From positions 1 through 64,000 of the forward strand of contig NZ_JARFYM010000017.1 in the NCBI RefSeq assembly GCF_030272705.1: a stretch of 64,000 nt of DNA, given 5' to 3'. The position numbers and the translations under genes are program-made. Below the pieces are notes generated by a model, which was not told the DNA's origin, did not search any database, and saw only the letters and a list, made by a program, of their open reading frames with translations. The DNA comes from Rhizobium mayense (GTDB lineage: Bacteria > Pseudomonadota > Alphaproteobacteria > Rhizobiales > Rhizobiaceae). Shown here piece by piece: positions 9,947-61,190 of this stretch. Every line of letters starts with the position of its first letter. Position 1 is the stretch's first letter.

Positions 9947-11818
9947 CTATTTGACGGCAAGCATGCGGCCTTCGATGCCGGCGTCGAATTGCAACCGCGC
10001 CAGCTTGGCGTAGATGCCGCCGTGCTGGATCAGGCTCTGATGCGTGCCTTCTTCGACGATGCGGCCTTGATCGAGGACCAGGATACGGTCGGCCTTCAGC
10101 ACGGTCGCCAGGCGGTGGGCGATGACGAGGGTGGTGCGCGTTTCCATCAGACCATCCAGTGCCTTCTGAACCAGCGTCTCGCTCTCGGCGTCGAGTGCCG
10201 ATGTCGCTTCGTCGAGCAGCAGGATCGGCGCATTCTTCAGGATGGCGCGGGCGATGGCGATACGCTGACGCTGGCCGCCGGAAAGGGTTATGCCGCGCTC
10301 GCCCACTTGCGTGTCGTAACCCTGGTCCAGGCGTGAGATGAAGTCATCCGCCTGAGCAGCCATCGCGGCAGCGCGAACCTCGTCGCGCATGGCTCCGGGG
10401 CGACCGAACGCGATGTTGTCATGGATCGAGGCAGCAAAAATCGTTGTGTCCTGCGGCACGATGGCGATGCGGCCACGCAAGGCATCGGGAGAGACGCGGC
10501 TGACATCGACGCCGTCGACCGCGACGCTACCCTGCTGCGGATCGTAGAAACGCAGGAGCAGCGAAAAGACCGTGCTCTTACCGGCACCGGAAGGGCCGAC
10601 AATCGCCACCGTTTCGCCCGGCTTGACGGAAAGCGACAGGCCATGCAGCGCGGACTTTTCAGGCCGCGACGGATAGGAGAAATGCACATCGGAGAATTCC
10701 ACCCGACCCTGCGGCGGATGGGGGAGGGGCCGCGGATCGGAGGGGGTAGCGATCGGCGAGACTTCAGCCAGAAGTTCGCCCAACCGGTCGGCTGCGCCGG
10801 CAGCTTGCGATAGCTCGCCCCAGACTTCCGACAGTGAACCGAGCGACGAGCCGGCGATAACGGAGTAAAGGAGGAACTGACCGAGCGTTCCTGCCGACAT
10901 CGTACCGGCGAGCACATTCTGTGCCCCGACCCAGAGCACGGCGACGATGCTGCCGAAGACCATGGTGATGGCAAAGCCGGTCAGCAGCGAGCGGGATTTG
11001 ATCGCGGCACGCGCAGCTTGATAGGCATCCTCGACCGCCGCGCCATAACGCTGCGCGGCGGCGGCTTCGCCGTTAAAGGCTTGTATGGTGCGGCTGGCGG
11101 CGATGGTTTCGTTGGCATAGGCCGACGCATTGGCCAGCGTATCCTGTGCGGCGCGCGAGCGCTTGCGCACCGAGCGACCGAAGCTGACGAGCGGCAGCAC
11201 GATGATCGGAATGGCGATCAGCACGATGCTCGACAGCTTGGGGCTGGTGACGATCATCATGACCACGGCGCCGAGACAGAGGATGAGATTGCGCAGCGCC
11301 ACCGAAGCCGTTGAGCCGACGGCGGACTTGATCTGCGTCGTGTCGGCCGTCAGCCGCGAAACGATTTCACCGGATTGATTGACATCGAAGAAGGAGGCCG
11401 ACAGTCGCGTCACATGGTCGAAGACCTCGCGGCGCATATCCGAGACGATGCGCTCGCCAATGGTAATGACAAAATAATAGCGCAGCGCACTCGCGAGCGC
11501 GAGGATGACGGCCATGACCATGATCGCGGCGAAATAGCTGTCGATGAGACCGCGATCGGACTGATCGAAGCCGTGGTCGATCATGCGCCGGACGGCAAGC
11601 GGCAGGGCGAGAGAGGTGACGGCGGCAGCGACCAAGGCGATAAGCGCGCCCAACACCATGCTGCGATAACGCCTGAGATAGGGTGTCAGGCGCAGAAGCG
11701 GCCGAATGGATCTGCGTTTTTTGTCGTCTGCCTGGCCCGTCTCTGACAAGTCGTCTCCAATCCCCATATCAGCAAGGGACTTCGCGCTTTCGCCCCTTGT
11801 TATCCTTGCTGCCTTCAT
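9947..11818 (-). CDS. ABC transporter, fused transmembrane and ATP-binding domains (MsbA/exporter type)
   Basis: A half-size ABC exporter of about 623 residues. The N-terminal six-helix membrane domain (about 50-345) is followed by a nucleotide-binding domain with Walker [11 protein letters not shown]-loop [13 protein letters not shown], signature LSGGQRQR, Walker [13 protein letters not shown] and switch His in IAHRLAT. It should act as a homodimer exporting a lipid or hydrophobic compound; the substrate cannot be inferred. Start is uncertain: in-frame ATGs at 11857, 11833, 11818 and 11767 exist without a clear ribosome site, and the first conserved residues begin after 11767. Confidence 0.9.
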
Positions 11819-54974: not shown

Positions 54975-55703
54975 ATGGATACGACAACAACAGCACTGGC
55001 AGCGGTCGCCACACCGGACATCACACTCTGGTCGCTCTTCATGCAGGCAGGCCTCGTGGTTAAGGTCGTCATGCTCGGTCTGCTCGCAGCATCCGTCTGG
55101 ACCTGGGCGATCGTCATCGACAAGTATCTGAGCTATGCCCGCGCTCGCCGGCAGTTCGATCACTTCGAGCAGGTCTTCTGGTCTGGCCAGTCGCTCGAGG
55201 AACTTTATCGCACGCTCTCGGAACGGACCAATACGGGTCTCAGCGCCATCTTCGTCGCCGCGATGCGCGAATGGAAGAAATCGTTTGAGCGCGGCGCACG
55301 CTCGCCGATCGGCCTGCAGATGCGTATCGACCGCGCCATGGACGTCACGCTCGCGCGTGAGTCGGAACATCTGGTCGCTCGTCTCGGCTCGCTCGCGACC
55401 ATCGGTTCGGCCGGCCCGTTCATCGGTCTGTTCGGCACCGTCGTCGGTATCATGACCTCGTTCCAGGCCATCGCCGGCTCGAAGTCGACCAATCTGGCAG
55501 TCGTAGCGCCTGGTATCGCGGAGGCACTGCTCGCAACCGCGATCGGCCTCGTCGCCGCTATCCCGGCGGTTATCGCCTACAACAAGTTCTCGGCCGATGC
55601 CGGCAAGCTGTCGGCGCGCATGGAAGGATTTGCGGACGAATTCTCCGCCATCCTGTCGCGTCAGATCGACGAAAAGCTGCAGCCGCGTCAGGCTGCCCAG
55701 TAA
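54975..55703 (+). CDS. tolQ: Tol-Pal system protein TolQ
   Basis: A 242-residue inner-membrane proton-channel subunit of the MotA/TolQ/ExbB family. The first transmembrane helix is at about 20-42 (LVVKVVMLGLLAASVWTWAI), and the second and third at about 140-160 and 175-198 (LGSLATIGSAGPFIGLFGTV, IAEALLATAIGLVAAIPAVI). With TolR it energises TolA to keep the outer membrane attached during division. 27 bases precede tolR. Confidence 0.95.
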   Translation: MDTTTTALAAVATPDITLWSLFMQAGLVVKVVMLGLLAASVWTWAIVIDKYLSYARARRQFDHFEQVFWSGQSLEELYRTLSERTNTGLSAIFVAAMREWKKSFERGARSPIGLQMRIDRAMDVTLARESEHLVARLGSLATIGSAGPFIGLFGTVVGIMTSFQAIAGSKSTNLAVVAPGIAEALLATAIGLVAAIPAVIAYNKFSADAGKLSARMEGFADEFSAILSRQIDEKLQPRQAAQ

Positions 55704-55730: not shown

Positions 55731-56189
55731 ATGGCAATGTCTGTTGGAGGCAATAGTGGTGGCGGTGCCCGCCGGGGCGGCCGCCGCGGTGGCCGCCGGG
55801 GCGGCCCGATCGCCGACATCAACGTAACGCCGCTGGTTGACGTCATGCTCGTGCTGCTGATCATCTTCATGGTGGCGGCACCGATGATGACCTCGGGAGT
55901 ACCGATCGACCTGCCGCAGACCCAGGCAGGTGCGCTGAACGCCCAGACGCAGCCGATCACCATTTCCATCAAGCAGGACGGCCAGGTTTTCCTGCAGGAA
56001 ACGCAGATCGAAGCGGCCGATATTGCCGCCAAGCTGCAGGCGATCGCCACGACCGGTTACAGCGAACGCATTTTCGTGCGTGGCGACGGCAAGGCGCCCT
56101 ATGGCGTGATCGCCGACGTCATGTCGCGCATTCAGGAGGCCGGCTACAAGAACATCGGCCTGGTTACCCAGCAGATAACGGATCACTGA
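55731..56189 (+). CDS. tolR: Tol-Pal system protein TolR, with N-terminal RGG repeats
   Basis: A 152-residue TolR/ExbD protein. The transmembrane helix (about 34-54) carries the essential Asp in INVTPLVDVMLVLLIIFMV, and the periplasmic domain follows. The cytoplasmic N-terminus (about 5-27) is unusual, with Gly-rich and Arg-Gly-Gly repeats (GGGARRGGRRGGRRGG). With TolQ it forms the proton-conducting motor. The gene lies between tolQ and tolA with short gaps. Confidence 0.95.
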   Translation: MAMSVGGNSGGGARRGGRRGGRRGGPIADINVTPLVDVMLVLLIIFMVAAPMMTSGVPIDLPQTQAGALNAQTQPITISIKQDGQVFLQETQIEAADIAAKLQAIATTGYSERIFVRGDGKAPYGVIADVMSRIQEAGYKNIGLVTQQITDH

Positions 56190-56199
56190 CGGTTCGATT

Positions 56200-57537
56200 A
56201 TGAAGCGGAGCATCGCGACATCTGCGGTCATTCACATCCTGGTGCTGATCGGTGCCATGTTGACACTGAGTGCGCCTGCGCCGCTGGAGACGCCTGAAAG
56301 CACGGCCATGGATGTGGATATCGTCCCTGCTGAGCAGCTTCAGCAGGGCGAAAAGAGTGCGCCCGTGACCGATCATGCCGCGCACAAGCAGACGACGAAG
56401 CAGACGCAAGTCGCAAATGCCCAGAATGTCGGCGACAACAATGTCGATCTGAAGAACCCCGCCGTGCCGACGCAGCGTCCGCAAGATGAGAACGCTACGG
56501 CTGCGCCTAAGAAATCCGCCGTGCCGGTGCCGCAGAACGATCCGCGGCCGAACGACGTCAAGACGATCGAGCAGCAGGATACGGAGGCCGCTCCGAAGGA
56601 GGTGGCTGCCATTCCGCAGCAAAAGCCGGATGTGACGCCCACCCCGACGCCTACACCCCCCACCCCGCAAAAGACGGAGCCGACCCCGCAGAAGAGCGAG
56701 GTCACGCCTACGCCGACCCCAACACCGCCGACGCCGACTGCGCAAAAAGCTGATCCGAAGCCGGTGACGGAAAACCCGACCGAGCAGGCTGCACAGCCAC
56801 CAGCGGACAAAGTTCCCGTTCCCGACGTGAAGCCGCAACCTCAGCAGCCGCCGAAGGTTGTTGAGGCGAAGCCCGACCCGAAACCGGAGCAGAAGCCCAC
56901 GACGAAGCCTCAACAGGTGGCGGACGCAAAGCCGCCGGTTAAGCCTACGGACAAGACGACCACCCAGAGCACGAGCAAGACCACATCGTCCGATAACGGG
57001 CAGGGCGACAGCGACAAGAGTCGCAAGACCGCGAAAGGTTCCAACAACGACGGTGATTTCAACGAGGGTGAAATCGCTGCGATGTTGAACAAAACCTCTT
57101 CGGCCGGCGGCGCCAAGCGGTCCAGCCAGTCGGCATCCGCCGGCGCGCAGACGCAGGTCGCGTCGCTTGGGGGCAGCAGGTCGCTCGGCGGCGGCAAGCT
57201 TAGTCAGAGCCAAAAGGACGGTCTGCGGGACCTGATTGCCAAGAACTGGAATGTCCTTCCTGGCCTGGAGGGGGCGAGCGATGTGAAGATCAAAGTTCGT
57301 ATTCGCCTCGACAAGTCGGGCCAGATTATCGGTGAACCGGAAGCGGTCGCCATCGGCGGGCCGGCTCCCACACAGGAAGCTTTGAGAGGGGCTGCAGAGC
57401 GTGCCGTGCGACGAAGCCAGGCCGATTTTCAGAAAGAAGTAGACGCCGGGAAACTGTTGCCGCCCGATAAATATGGCGGCGCCGATGGTTGGAACGAACT
57501 GGTGTTGAACTTCGATGCAAGCGACTTGGGGCTGTGA
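56200..57537 (+). CDS. tolA: Tol-Pal system protein TolA, proline-rich linker
   Basis: A 445-residue TolA: N-terminal membrane anchor (about 5-28, IHILVLIGAMLTLSA), a long low-complexity linker (about 60-330) and the C-terminal TonB/TolA domain (about 334-445). The linker is rich in Pro, Thr, Lys and Gln. It contains two PTPTPTPPTP blocks (about residues 147-185) rather than the long Ala/Lys helix of E. coli TolA. The C-terminal domain includes KNWNVLPGLEGASDVKIKVR and SGQIIGEPEA. The stop overlaps the next ATG (TGATG). A shorter relative of its C-terminal domain is encoded immediately after. Confidence 0.93.
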   Translation: MKRSIATSAVIHILVLIGAMLTLSAPAPLETPESTAMDVDIVPAEQLQQGEKSAPVTDHAAHKQTTKQTQVANAQNVGDNNVDLKNPAVPTQRPQDENATAAPKKSAVPVPQNDPRPNDVKTIEQQDTEAAPKEVAAIPQQKPDVTPTPTPTPPTPQKTEPTPQKSEVTPTPTPTPPTPTAQKADPKPVTENPTEQAAQPPADKVPVPDVKPQPQQPPKVVEAKPDPKPEQKPTTKPQQVADAKPPVKPTDKTTTQSTSKTTSSDNGQGDSDKSRKTAKGSNNDGDFNEGEIAAMLNKTSSAGGAKRSSQSASAGAQTQVASLGGSRSLGGGKLSQSQKDGLRDLIAKNWNVLPGLEGASDVKIKVRIRLDKSGQIIGEPEAVAIGGPAPTQEALRGAAERAVRRSQADFQKEVDAGKLLPPDKYGGADGWNELVLNFDASDLGL

Positions 57538-57977
57538 TGCGGGCAGTGCAGCTTTCAACGAACCACTGTCTCCGTTTCGGCCTGCCCGTGCTTGCGGCCC
57601 TGCGGACGATGCTGGCAGGTTCCGTGTCTGCCCAGCCCACGAAGGCCGCTGACGTACATCAGCTTGAACGTGCGGCCGAGGAAAGCATTCGCGAGAAGGT
57701 CGCGGAGAACTGGAACCCGATGCCGGGTCTGTCTGGCATGAAGAACGTCCATGTTCAAATCCGCCTCAGGCTCGACCGTGGCGGGCAGATCGTGGGAGAG
57801 CCAGAAGTCACGACAAGGGGCGGCCCTAAAGAGACACAGATTGCTGTTGCGACAAGCGCTACGCGCGCCGTCGTGAAGGCGGCACCTTTCAAGACCCTGC
57901 CGCAGACTCAATTCGACAATGAAACTAGCTCGGTCGAAGTCATCCTAAACTTCACACCGGGCGACATGGCGCTTTAA
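57537..57977 (+). CDS. Free-standing TolA C-terminal domain paralogue in the Tol-Pal operon
   Basis: A 146-residue protein whose ATG overlaps the tolA stop. It has an N-terminal signal-like stretch [18 protein letters not shown], probably ending at SVSAQ, and then only a TolA C-terminal (domain III/TonB-like) module. The module includes [30 protein letters not shown], and [13 protein letters not shown], matching KNWNVLPGLEG, GQIIGEPEA and ELVLNFDASDLGL of the TolA just upstream. No membrane anchor beyond the signal and no linker are present. It could be a periplasmic competitor or modulator of TolA contacts. Its stop overlaps the tolB ATG (TAATG). Confidence 0.85.
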
Positions 57978-59302
57978 TGCTGAAAGGCTTGGCACATATG
58001 ATCAGAAAATCCCTCGTTCGTCTCCTGCTAGTGCTGGCAGGCCTGACGGCAGCCCTCGCCACTCCGGCCTATGCTGTGGTTGAACTCAATATCAACAAGG
58101 GCAATGTCCAGCCCATGCCGATCGCCATCACCGACCTTCTGTCGAATGATGGCCTGGGTGCCCAGGTTTCGGGCGTCATAGCTGCCGATCTGCAGCGGTC
58201 CGGCCTGTTCGCGCCGGTCAACAAGCAGGCATTTATCGAGAAAATCAGCAATCCCGATTCGACGCCGCGCTTCCAGGACTGGACGGCGATCAACGCACAG
58301 GCGCTGGTGACCGGTCGGGTGACGCAGGAGGGCGGCCGCCTTCGCGCCGAGTTCCGGCTGTGGGACACCTATGGGAACCAGCAGATGGTCGGCCAGCAGT
58401 TCTATGCGCAGCCGGACAACTGGCGCCGCGTCGCCCACATCATCGCCGACGCGATCTATGAGAAGATCACCGGTGAAAAGGGCTATTTCGATACGCGCGT
58501 CGTCTTCGTCGCCGAAAGCGGGCCGAAGACGGCCCGCAAGACGCAGCTTGGCATCATGGACCAGGATGGCTTCAACGCGCGCATGCTGACGGATGGCAGC
58601 GATCTCGTGCTGACGCCGCGCTTCTCGCCGAACCGGCAGGAGGTCACCTACATGTCCTTTGCCAACCAGCAGCCGCGCGTCTACCTGCTGCAGCTTCAGA
58701 CGGGCCAGCGTGAGCTCGTCGGCAACTTCCCCGGCATGACCTTCTCGCCGCGTTTCTCGCCGGATGGCCAGCGGGTGATCATGAGCTTGCAGCAGGAAGG
58801 CAACGCCAACATCTATACGATGGACCTGCGCTCGCGCACGACGACCCGCCTGACGTCGACGGCGGCAATCGACACCTCGCCGTCCTATTCGCCCGACGGC
58901 ACGCAGATTGCCTTCGAAAGCGACCGCGGCGGCAAGCAGCAGATCTACGTGATGAATGCTGATGGCTCCAACCAGCACCGCATCTCCTTCGGCGACGGCT
59001 CCTATTCGACGCCGGTCTGGTCGCCCCGCGGCGATCTGATTGCCTTCACCAAACAGTCCGGTCAGACCTTCTCGATCGGCGTGATGAAGACGGATGGCTC
59101 GGGCGAGCGCCTTCTGACCTCGGGTTTCCACAATGAAGGCCCGACCTGGGCGCCGAACGGCCGCGTCATCATGTTCTTCCGCGAACCGCAGGGGTCCAGT
59201 GGTCCGCAGCTCTATTCGATCGATCTGACGGGCTACAACGAGCAGAAGATCCCGACCCCGGGCTTCGCCTCGGATCCGGCCTGGTCGCCGCTTCTCGAGT
59301 AG
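57977..59302 (+). CDS. tolB: Tol-Pal system beta-propeller protein TolB
   Basis: A 441-residue periplasmic TolB: signal peptide ([20 protein letters not shown], cut at AYA), an N-terminal alpha/beta domain ([17 protein letters not shown]) and a C-terminal six-bladed propeller. The propeller has repeated SPDG motifs ([52 protein letters not shown]). TolB binds Pal and, through its N-terminus, TolA. The ATG at 57977 overlaps the previous stop; a second ATG at 57998 with AAGG upstream gives a more usual signal peptide. Confidence 0.95.
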
Positions 59303-59454: not shown

Positions 59455-59988
59455 ATGAGCCGCATCGCAACCCCGGCCGTTGGCCATATGCAAAACCTCG
59501 CTCGCAACCCGATCATGATCGCGCTTTTCGTCGGCCTTTCGCTGGCCGGCTGCGCCTCCAAGAAGGGCTTGCCGAACGATGCCAACGGCCTTGGCCTCAA
59601 CGGTGCCGGTAATGCCGCTCCTGGCTCGCCGCAGGACTTTACGGTCAACGTCGGCGACCGCATTTTCTTCGATACCGATAGCTCGTCGATCCGTGCCGAC
59701 GCCGCCCAGACGCTCCAGCGTCAGGCCCAGTGGCTCGCCCGCTACCCGAACTACTCGATCACAGTCGAAGGCCATGCCGACGAACGTGGTACGCGCGAAT
59801 ACAACCTGGCTCTCGGTGCCCGTCGTGCTGCCGCCACCAAGGATTATCTCGCTTCGCGCGGCGTTCCGGCTCAGCGCATGAAGACGATCTCCTACGGCAA
59901 GGAACGTCCGGTCGCGACTTGCGACGATATTTCCTGCTGGTCGCAGAACCGTCGCGCCGTTACGGTGCTCAACGGCGCCGGTTCCTGA
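59455..59988 (+). CDS. pal: Peptidoglycan-associated lipoprotein Pal
   Basis: A 177-residue lipoprotein: signal with lipobox Leu30-Ala-Gly-Cys33 (LAGCASKKG), then an OmpA-like peptidoglycan-binding domain (about 65-175) with GDRIFFDTDSSSIR and VEGHADERGTREYNLALGAR. A Cys pair occurs near the C-terminus (TCDDISCWSQNRRAV). It anchors the outer membrane to peptidoglycan and binds TolB and TolA. Its own promoter is likely in the 152-base gap, where TTAACCAT (59373-59380) and TTAACC (59397) occur. A terminator follows. Confidence 0.96.
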   Translation: MSRIATPAVGHMQNLARNPIMIALFVGLSLAGCASKKGLPNDANGLGLNGAGNAAPGSPQDFTVNVGDRIFFDTDSSSIRADAAQTLQRQAQWLARYPNYSITVEGHADERGTREYNLALGARRAAATKDYLASRGVPAQRMKTISYGKERPVATCDDISCWSQNRRAVTVLNGAGS

Positions 59989-60137: not shown

Positions 60138-61190
60138 ATGATCCAAATGAGAAGACTTGTCGTGGCGAGCTTGCTTTGTCTCGCCGCTGTCGCTGGTAGT
60201 GAGCGTGACGCCTCTGCCTTATCGCTTTTCGGAGTTCACCTCGGTGGGCGCGGCACGTCGGAACAGCCTGTTCCGAACAACGCGGTTCTCCAGGGGCAGG
60301 GACAGTCCGGGCAAGCACCTGTCATCAACGTCCAAAACAGCGATGCCGAAGTCCGTTTGCAGCAGCTTGAAGACCAGATGCGCCAGTTGAACGGCCGCGT
60401 CGAAGAAATGAGCTATCAATTGCTGCAGATGCAGGAGCAGATCCGCAAGACCCAAGAGGACAATGAATTCCGCTTCCAGCAGCTTGAAAAGCGCGGTGGA
60501 GGCGGCAGCAGCGGTGCGGCGGGCGCCGGCGCCGCTCCAATGAAGAAGAGCGAAGCGGATGTCCCGGCCCAGAGTGCGGGTGGCGGTCAGCAACAGGACG
60601 ACATCGCCGGCGTCATCAGCGATTCGCAAGGCGGCGACGCACCGGGTCCCGCGCCGCAGAGCGGTGGTCCCGGTAAGCCGCCGACCCAGCTTGGCTCGAT
60701 CCAGTTCGATCCGAGCGGCAAACAGGTCGGCTCGACGGCGACACGTGCCAATAATGGTGCGGGCGCTCCGCCCGCCGCAGGGGCCGGAACACAGACGGCC
60801 TCGCTCGGCAACGAAGGCGATCAGTATAAGGCGGCCTATGGCCATGTCCTGTCCGGCGACTATGGTGTCGCCGAGCAGGAGTTCCGCCAGTACATCGACA
60901 GCTATCCGAACAGCGCCCGGGCGGCTGACGCCAATTTCTGGCTTGGTGAAGCGCTTTATTCGCAAGGCAAATACAATGATGCGGCCAAGACTTTCCTGAA
61001 CGCGCATCAGAAATACGGCACCTCCGAAAAGGCGCCCGAAATGCTCTTGAAGCTTGGCATGTCGCTCGCCGCGCTCGACAACAAGGACACGGCCTGCGCG
61101 ACGCTGCGCGAAGTGAACAAGCGCTATCCGAAGGCTTCCAAGGCCGTTACCAACAAGGTCGCCAGTGAACAGAAGCGCCTTGCCTGCTGA
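60138..61190 (+). CDS. cpoB: Cell division coordinator CpoB / Tol-Pal protein YbgF
   Basis: A 350-residue periplasmic protein. It has a signal peptide (RRLVVASLLCLAAVAGSE), a coiled-coil trimerisation part (about 58-125, LQQLEDQMRQLNGRVEEMSY), a Gly/Pro/Gln-rich linker (about 125-225), and C-terminal tetratricopeptide repeats (about 230-350, YKAAYGHVLSGDYGVAEQEF, ANFWLGEALYSQGKY). CpoB/YbgF modulates PBP1B and Tol during septation. Starts at 60138 or 60147 are both possible. The gene closes the tol-pal cluster. Confidence 0.93.
   Translation: MIQMRRLVVASLLCLAAVAGSERDASALSLFGVHLGGRGTSEQPVPNNAVLQGQGQSGQAPVINVQNSDAEVRLQQLEDQMRQLNGRVEEMSYQLLQMQEQIRKTQEDNEFRFQQLEKRGGGGSSGAAGAGAAPMKKSEADVPAQSAGGGQQQDDIAGVISDSQGGDAPGPAPQSGGPGKPPTQLGSIQFDPSGKQVGSTATRANNGAGAPPAAGAGTQTASLGNEGDQYKAAYGHVLSGDYGVAEQEFRQYIDSYPNSARAADANFWLGEALYSQGKYNDAAKTFLNAHQKYGTSEKAPEMLLKLGMSLAALDNKDTACATLREVNKRYPKASKAVTNKVASEQKRLAC

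Follow-up and report, generated by a model that had tools for sequence, protein, structure and literature searches.

Why should a Rhizobium tol-pal operon carry a second, free-standing copy of TolA domain III? The question arises from a contig of Rhizobium mayense (NZ_JARFYM010000017.1, RefSeq assembly GCF_030272705.1), of which positions 1 to 64,000, called the window below, were analyzed as a whole; positions refer to this window and all of its genes discussed here lie on the forward strand. A gene encoding 146 residues (57537–57977), hereafter X, lies between tolA and tolB. The original prediction, made from the sequence alone, held that X is a signal-bearing protein made essentially of the TolA C-terminal domain, and a plausible new component of the envelope-division machinery. 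We found that the gene is real, that about half of the sampled Rhizobium species have it, and that the exchange and loss of X and of the tip of TolA hint at an arms race with TolA-hijacking phages or bacteriocins.

What kind of protein is X? Its open reading frame starts with an ATG that shares one base (57537) with the stop codon of tolA (TGA, 57535–57537), which confirms the predicted TGATG overlap. Over 113 residues, the product shares 38% identity with the C-terminus of the neighboring TolA (BLASTP, E = 4e-24). Pfam and NCBIfam name neither protein, because X scores below the cut-offs (17.6 bits for Pfam TonB_2, cut-off 22 bits; 23.1 bits for NCBIfam tolA_full, cut-off 59.45) and the TolA of the window has no Pfam match and a single weak, unrelated NCBIfam match. 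With a signal-like N-terminus and domain III as the only parts of its 146 residues, X is not a full-length TolA. A sequence profile of X by itself did not find TolA in the Protein Data Bank (PDB), unlike a profile of TolA domain III, which reaches the domain of Pseudomonas aeruginosa (E about 1e-3). We built an AlphaFold model of X with 49 X sequences, which predicts a domain III fold with the order H-E-E-H-E-H for residues 45–146 (57669–57974). Model confidence, averaged by blocks, is 90–96 for residues 51–120, 78 for residues 121–130, 92 for residues 131–140 and 77 at the end, and the predicted local distance difference test (pLDDT) is below 50 for residues 5–39. When the model was compared with the PDB using Foldseek, ranks 1–3 and 5–7 were TolA domain III and rank 4 was the C-terminal domain of HasB. 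The best match was the P. aeruginosa domain III (1lr0; E = 3.9e-4; template modelling score of 0.47 by query length), the only one with E < 0.001, followed by matches at E = 0.003–0.03; the lower ranks include complexes of domain III with a TolB peptide (6s3w), with phage g3p/pIII (2x9a, 4g7x) and with colicin A (3qdr). By sequence similarity and predicted fold, X thus belongs to the TolA domain III/TonB-C fold class.

How widespread is X? We searched 100 Rhizobium genomes and read each tolA–tolB junction. X was intact in 53 of them and truncated or frameshifted in eight (including locus L113, assigned by hand to the broken copies because of its frameshift); three had a gap of 90–95 nt without X, and tolA abuts tolB in the other 36. 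Counts based on tolB omit L087, whose tolB is a 59-residue fragment, and refer to 99 genomes and 52 carriers instead of 100 and 53. The start of X overlaps or abuts the tolA stop in all 53 intact loci. A chance open reading frame is ruled out by this recurrence in the same slot and by ratios of nonsynonymous to synonymous divergence (dN/dS, or omega) that are mostly below 1. Thirteen matched loci, twelve from Rhizobium and one from a Rhizobiales bacterium, include those of R. calliandrae (84%), R. leucaenae (77%), R. freirei (73%), R. miluonense (71%), R. tropici, R. lusitanum and R. rhizogenes. Sequence reading of 27 loci from other genera of the family revealed no X. By coordinates, none of the 115 other-genus genomes among the matches listed in both searches (195 other-genus genomes were sampled) had room for X, taken as at least 400 nt between the domain III match and tolB; the longest interval was 308 nt. 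A gene in this slot therefore recurs within Rhizobium and was seen in none of the other-genus loci checked, and the claim that standard operons lack it holds. With 53 of 100 Rhizobium genomes and 0 of 115 others, X is not a core tol-pal component by lineage-wide presence. Because it is absent or broken in 47 of the 100 genomes, it is dispensable to division there, and the proposal of a standing component of the division machine is not supported in this form. Under the refutation rule given with the original prediction (gene absent or frameshifted in close relatives), these losses count against it, although close relatives mostly retain X: within the window's own subclade of the tolB tree it is intact in 26 of 28 rows.

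The N-terminus of X (residues 1–32, 57537–57632) resembles a signal peptide by sequence, by hydrophobicity and by its low pLDDT. Indeed, a hydrophobic run, a positive n-region and a small-residue site are found in all 53 X proteins by a home-made test (not SignalP), in agreement with the predicted signal. Of the 53 runs, the window's is the weakest (mean 1.82; runs within mature X domains reach up to 2.02) because an arginine lies inside it, and export of this copy may be weaker. This arginine is encoded at 57603–57605, where the nearest relative (L005) has a glycine. The hydrophobicity test places the first possible signal cut at residue 20, and a cut after residue 32 (...SVSA, followed by QP) is possible.

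Free-standing secreted TonB-C-like proteins already exist elsewhere; what surprises at this locus is that the tip of TolA lies in an exchange island. We profiled DNA identity in 90-base windows for nine pairs of loci, chosen to show the drop or as contrast. tolB was about 72–100% identical in these pairs, mostly above 85%, and X was far lower (about 30–65%). X falls to 38–58% in L006/L033, with a tolA side that is also lowered (mostly 62–88%), to 50–56% in L012/L020, climbing at the end of X, and to 40–63% in L001/L025. In L093/L097, identity is 32–54% over the first two thirds of X and 68–86% after that. The drop can also begin inside tolA: about 555 bases before its stop in L017/L019 (minimum 37%; X at 67–88%), and about 350 bases before it in L095/L097, where most of X is included. 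No such drop is seen in L001/L005, the contrast pair (X at 86–92%). At the protein level, L093 and L097 have TolB fragments that are 100% identical after rounding (240 residues) and domain III sequences that are 99% identical, with X at 38%; across the sample, genomes with TolB fragments at least 97% identical can have X proteins that are only 33% identical.

This pattern extends beyond the profiled pairs. We compared synonymous divergence (dS) in 413 pairs of X-bearing genomes with a tolB dS below 0.6. It exceeded twice that of tolB in 289 of the 413 pairs for X and in 269 for TolA domain III, against 11 for the TolA N-terminus. The opposite sign was observed in L107/L112 and L105/L109, where the dS of X is 0.01 and that of tolB 0.25–0.30; alleles closer to each other than their flanks are the mark that a recent transfer would leave. 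For domain III, the same excess was found in 16 of 245 pairs of X-less genomes and in 144 of 166 pairs of an X carrier with an X-less genome. Eight X-less genomes scattered among X carriers, which we picked by hand from the tolB tree, present it in 0 of 11 pairs (dS of 0.19 for domain III and 0.47 for tolB), a pattern that the spread of a single X-less haplotype would produce. Measured on the tolB tree in the approximately unbiased (AU) test, the misfit per base is roughly 4.9 log units for X, 5.3 for domain III and 1.3 for the TolA N-terminus (438, 384 and 270 bases, respectively), such that X and domain III fit this tree about four times worse per base than the TolA N-terminus. These comparisons show that TolA domain III and X must have been exchanged between lineages as very divergent alleles, and the TolA N-terminus and TolB not. 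Such a pattern looks more like antagonistic evolution than like regulation. Among the open-licence papers listed by our literature searches, none described a gene in the tolA–tolB interval or an exchange of domain III alleles in rhizobia.

Is X still under constraint? In 80 same-allele pairs with a dS of 0.05–0.6, the median dN/dS was 0.36 for X (range 0.18–0.85), 0.03 for tolB and 0.10 for TolA domain III. Two near-identical pairs outside this count (dS of 0.01) gave omega values of 1.58 and 1.36, which carry no weight either way. Across 12 loci of up to 10 kb each, dN/dS was 0.18–0.40 for X, 0.03–0.09 for pal (12 loci), 0.08–0.13 for cpoB (11 loci), 0.01–0.13 for tolR, 0.00–0.04 for tolQ and 0.15–0.28 for tilS (10 loci), and X ranked first in each of the 12 among the genes with valid values, which exclude tolB and the ybgC of L044 and L046. 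With a median of 0.36 that lies above its neighbors, X is under constraint but evolves fast.

Constraint is unevenly distributed along X. Passages of PMC7391070 and PMC4339652 describe TolB, phage g3p and colicin N as docking on the edge strand beta3 of TolA by strand addition, and the C-terminal helix of TolA as a lid that TolB pushes aside. The counterpart of this docking edge in X (residues 132–139, 57930–57953) is the secondary-structure element with the lowest entropy in the protein. Over six shared columns (134–139), its entropy is 0.90 in X and 0.77 in TolA domain III, and the C-terminal lid or tail reaches 2.04 in X and 0.83 in TolA. The effective depth of these alignments is 35 alleles for X and 8 for TolA; thinned to 8 rows, X gives 0.71 for beta3 and 1.60 for the lid. 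Because beta3 is conserved and the lid eroded, X seems to keep an open docking edge.

Does X follow a partner within the operon? Mature TolB starts with TLD[LI]RKGN instead of VE[IL]NI[NS]KGN in 18 of 99 genomes (e.g., L088 and L091). This TolB type goes with TolA domain III cluster 1 in all 18 and in exactly those genomes, which suggests a possible co-change of the TolA–TolB docking pair; the 18 genomes form one clade of the tolB tree and thus represent about one evolutionary event. X clusters X0 and X3 are each found with both TolB N-terminus types and with at least two domain III clusters. This independence disfavors a matched TolB or TolA partner, and X as a partner matched to TolB was set aside since X types cross the TLD[LI]R type, on the strength of that single event.

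Where did X come from? In a tree of 180 domains, X forms a single clade with a support of 98 in the Shimodaira–Hasegawa-like approximate likelihood ratio test (SH-aLRT). A repeated origin from each TolA inside Rhizobium is unsupported by this single clade, and X as a reservoir feeding domain III is likewise unsupported, as no Rhizobium domain III falls among X in this tree. Most likely, X originated once in Rhizobium from the 3′ end of tolA. The leader of X resembles the tolB leader in 15 of 53 genomes (shuffle fraction of at most 0.01), and both follow the stop before them at a similar distance. X may thus have arisen when the end of tolA was duplicated together with the tolB leader; these 15 genomes are related, so the resemblance is a lead only, and the window's own two leaders present none (14 matches against 13.6 expected). 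On the tolB tree, which has 126 rows, the intact, broken and absent states need 14 changes and broken copies lie beside intact ones in several places, and the loss of X was therefore repeated.

Domain III copies were also found outside this slot. In genus g27 (two genomes), a gene with a signal and a domain III follows tolA (L181 1955–2488; L182 2117–2665); the roughly 2 kb read past it hold no tolB match. Its domain III groups with g27's own TolA (SH-aLRT 100, with a long-branch warning), so that the same invention was probably made twice. An X-less Rhizobium, G029, harbors a domain III gene on a prophage-like contig (C64, L180 2696–3259) with a serine integrase and head/connector genes nearby. 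In this fusion, domain III is preceded by residues 1–64 of the product of a phage-type gene resembling staphylococcal nuclease (SNase), and this nuclease piece is up to 86% identical to that of five Rhizobium phages; G029 carries a second fragment at a contig end. In another genus, a 7.2-kb contig (G237:C103) encodes a signal-bearing domain III of 119 residues (L179 4355–4714) at most 1.5 kb from an IS110-type transposase. Mobile elements may carry copies of domain III too. When the extra genes were added to the tree, X was no longer a pure clade: four extra genes and one TolA fell inside. The smallest set holding both genes with a mobile context (support of 95) comprises the 53 X, the four extra genes and the g27 TolA. 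This extended tree carries long-branch warnings and its placement of the added genes is unsure.

What, then, could X be for? Colicins and filamentous phages regularly target TolA, and to our knowledge it is poorly understood how a host could escape such hijackers without breaking Tol-Pal. We tentatively favor a decoy function, in which X would be a diversifying protein of the periplasm that lures TolA-hijacking phages or bacteriocins away, a reading that draws on sequence comparisons and a structural model and that we hold somewhat short of even. Having arisen once from the 3′ end of tolA, perhaps with the tolB leader, X would be made from the tol operon directly after tolA, because the stop and start codons overlap or abut. 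Judging by its N-terminus, it would be released unanchored into the periplasm, where its edge strand, given the predicted fold and its conservation, would accept an incoming beta-strand as that of TolA does. X could act as a decoy because it has no link to the motor: it would capture the strand peptides with which filamentous phages or bacteriocins otherwise dock on domain III to use the TolQRA motor. The same pressure would drive the exchange of domain III and X alleles. Conflict with agents docking on domain III may best explain why a protein without a motor link and with a conserved edge is optional, often lost and exchanged together with TolA domain III. A broader version, held a little more loosely, is that domain III and its optional secreted copy form one exchange island kept polymorphic by TolA hijackers, with the copy acting as a decoy. 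We counted in support the prophage-like gene of G029, the transposase-linked gene of G237 and the recurrence in g27. Filamentous phages have been seen by electron microscopy on Sinorhizobium meliloti, according to a passage of PMC6992544.

Several observations weigh against a decoy. Our searches found no parasite using Rhizobium TolA. We know of none either. The phage collection and the IMG/VR viral contigs yielded no clear relative of X, and a phage-borne X was set aside on this basis; one phage search matched phages in the nuclease piece only, and the single phage match to X is marginal (28%, E = 0.01). PADLOC-DB 2.0.0 gave no match for the window's X and two other X proteins up to E = 0.1. 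Among the features of an anti-parasite decoy, the domain copy is seen and allele exchange is strong, but positive selection on residues is not apparent: in none of the 80 pairs does omega reach 1. Carriers and non-carriers of X cluster on the tree, such that pair counts are not independent. In the AU test, the tolB tree is rejected not only for X and domain III but for the TolA N-terminus, the control, as well. The loss of purity of the X clade in the extended tree counts on the same side, as does the loss or breakage of X in nearly half of the Rhizobium genomes at no known cost. Finally, the conserved edge strand would suit competition for TolB equally well. As separate observations, the marginal match lies at 10059–10361 of MT837095.1, an unannotated 'Bacteriophage sp.' record from human faeces, and the plasmid collection gave five matches, on replicons of 3.5–4.6 Mb, which we assume to be ordinary tolA.

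Alternatively, X could be a regulator of the Tol system, a soluble domain III that competes with TolA for the N-terminal strand of TolB and thereby tunes Pal mobilisation or constriction. We consider this unlikely, though it is the alternative that survives best. Competition for TolB can be entertained because the TolB-docking strand of X is conserved and its lid eroded; X is coupled to the tolA stop in every intact locus, and binding between TolB and domain III is weak (dissociation constant of about 40–200 μM in a passage of PMC7391070), so that a competitor could matter. However, a regulator is hard to reconcile with the absence or breakage of X in so many genomes, and X types do not track the TolB N-terminus types, as far as about one event can tell. 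Moreover, the X of a regulator with a conserved partner should not fall to one-third identity between genomes with nearly identical TolB.

X could also be a tandem duplicate on its way out, whether or not it was ever useful, now drifting and carried along by the exchange of the neighboring domain III. The eight broken copies and the three loci with a gap but no X, spread over several places of the tolB tree among the 14 state changes, fit such decay, as does the top rank of X for dN/dS in each of the 12 loci. However, 53 copies are intact, all with a signal-like N-terminus, omega stays at 0.18–0.85 in the 80 pairs, beta3 is nearly as conserved as in TolA, and X appears to have been recently shared horizontally between backgrounds. 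Overall, we regard decay as quite improbable. Least probable, and doubtful in our view, is that X helps as an adaptor for some other partner in the envelope, e.g., CpoB, Pal, a TonB-dependent receptor or a further outer-membrane protein, whose variation would drive the exchange: the fold class is common to the C-terminal domains of TonB and HasB and related genomes encode other free-standing secreted domain III/TonB-C-like proteins, but Pal and CpoB of this locus are well conserved and do not mirror the variation of X, and no variable partner gene was found, no genome-wide search having been made.

Compared with known systems, X shares its fold, its edge strand and its sequence similarity to the neighboring TolA with domain III of Escherichia coli, P. 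aeruginosa (1lr0, 6s3w) and Vibrio cholerae (4g7x); it differs from TolA by lacking a lasting membrane anchor, domain II and the link to TolQR, and by its eroded lid. Variability inside tolA among strains is also described in a passage of PMC3477136 on E. coli, where it is the number of repeats in an intragenic tract that varies, whereas in Rhizobium the 3′ domain is exchanged and a gene is added. As for the decoy that we favor, the class of receptor decoys and receptor polymorphisms in phage or bacteriocin resistance would offer a likeness in the predicted soluble copy of a hijacked receptor domain and in the exchange of divergent alleles at the receptor. Rhizobium offers a natural experiment, as its living species, some with X and some without, hold many divergent alleles of domain III. 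Were X a decoy, it would represent a new resistance principle, not known for Tol-Pal, and a handle for finding rhizobial phages or bacteriocins that depend on TolA; if it is a TolB competitor, it would be a natural tuner of outer-membrane constriction. Either reading would alter the view of domain III as a uniformly conserved part.

The order of the tol locus in the window is tolQ (54975–55703), tolR (55731–56189), tolA, X, tolB, pal (59455–59988) and a cpoB/ybgF-type gene (60138–61190), the outer genes being named by order and sequence. TolA (56200–57537, 445 residues) carries its domain III at about 57151–57534, as supported by BLASTP with X, a model of the last 128 residues and the profile match. 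The core order tolQ-tolR-tolA-tolB-pal appears in a passage of PMC7391070, and a passage of PMC7327166 describes the S. meliloti operon as tolQRAB; compared with the core operon (with ybgC and cpoB), the remaining gene order of the window is standard, and the difference is the optional gene of Rhizobium between tolA and tolB. The predicted overlap of X with tolB stands only in part. The TAATG sequence exists at the junction (57975–57979), but tolB, recognized by Pfam TolB_N and PD40, probably starts at the ATG at 57998 (57998–59302) and not at 57977, the first in-frame ATG of its open reading frame: a ribosome-binding-like AAAGG (57983–57987), within the junction and tolB leader (57978–57997), precedes 57998. 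The junction ATG is replaced by GTG or GCG in 6 of the 53 X-bearing loci. Because it varies in relatives, X probably ends just 5′ of the tolB leader, without overlapping tolB.

Finally, small signal-bearing domain III/TonB-C-like proteins are encoded in related genera. The three that we read (L207 1474–1872, L208 1489–1896 and L210 1507–1890; 127–135 residues) lie outside tol operons and present the same signal-like start and single C-terminal domain as X; in contrast to X, they possess a CW...CAP[FY] cysteine pair. Two of the three adjoin a gene whose product we take, from a motif, to resemble hydroxyproline epimerase.

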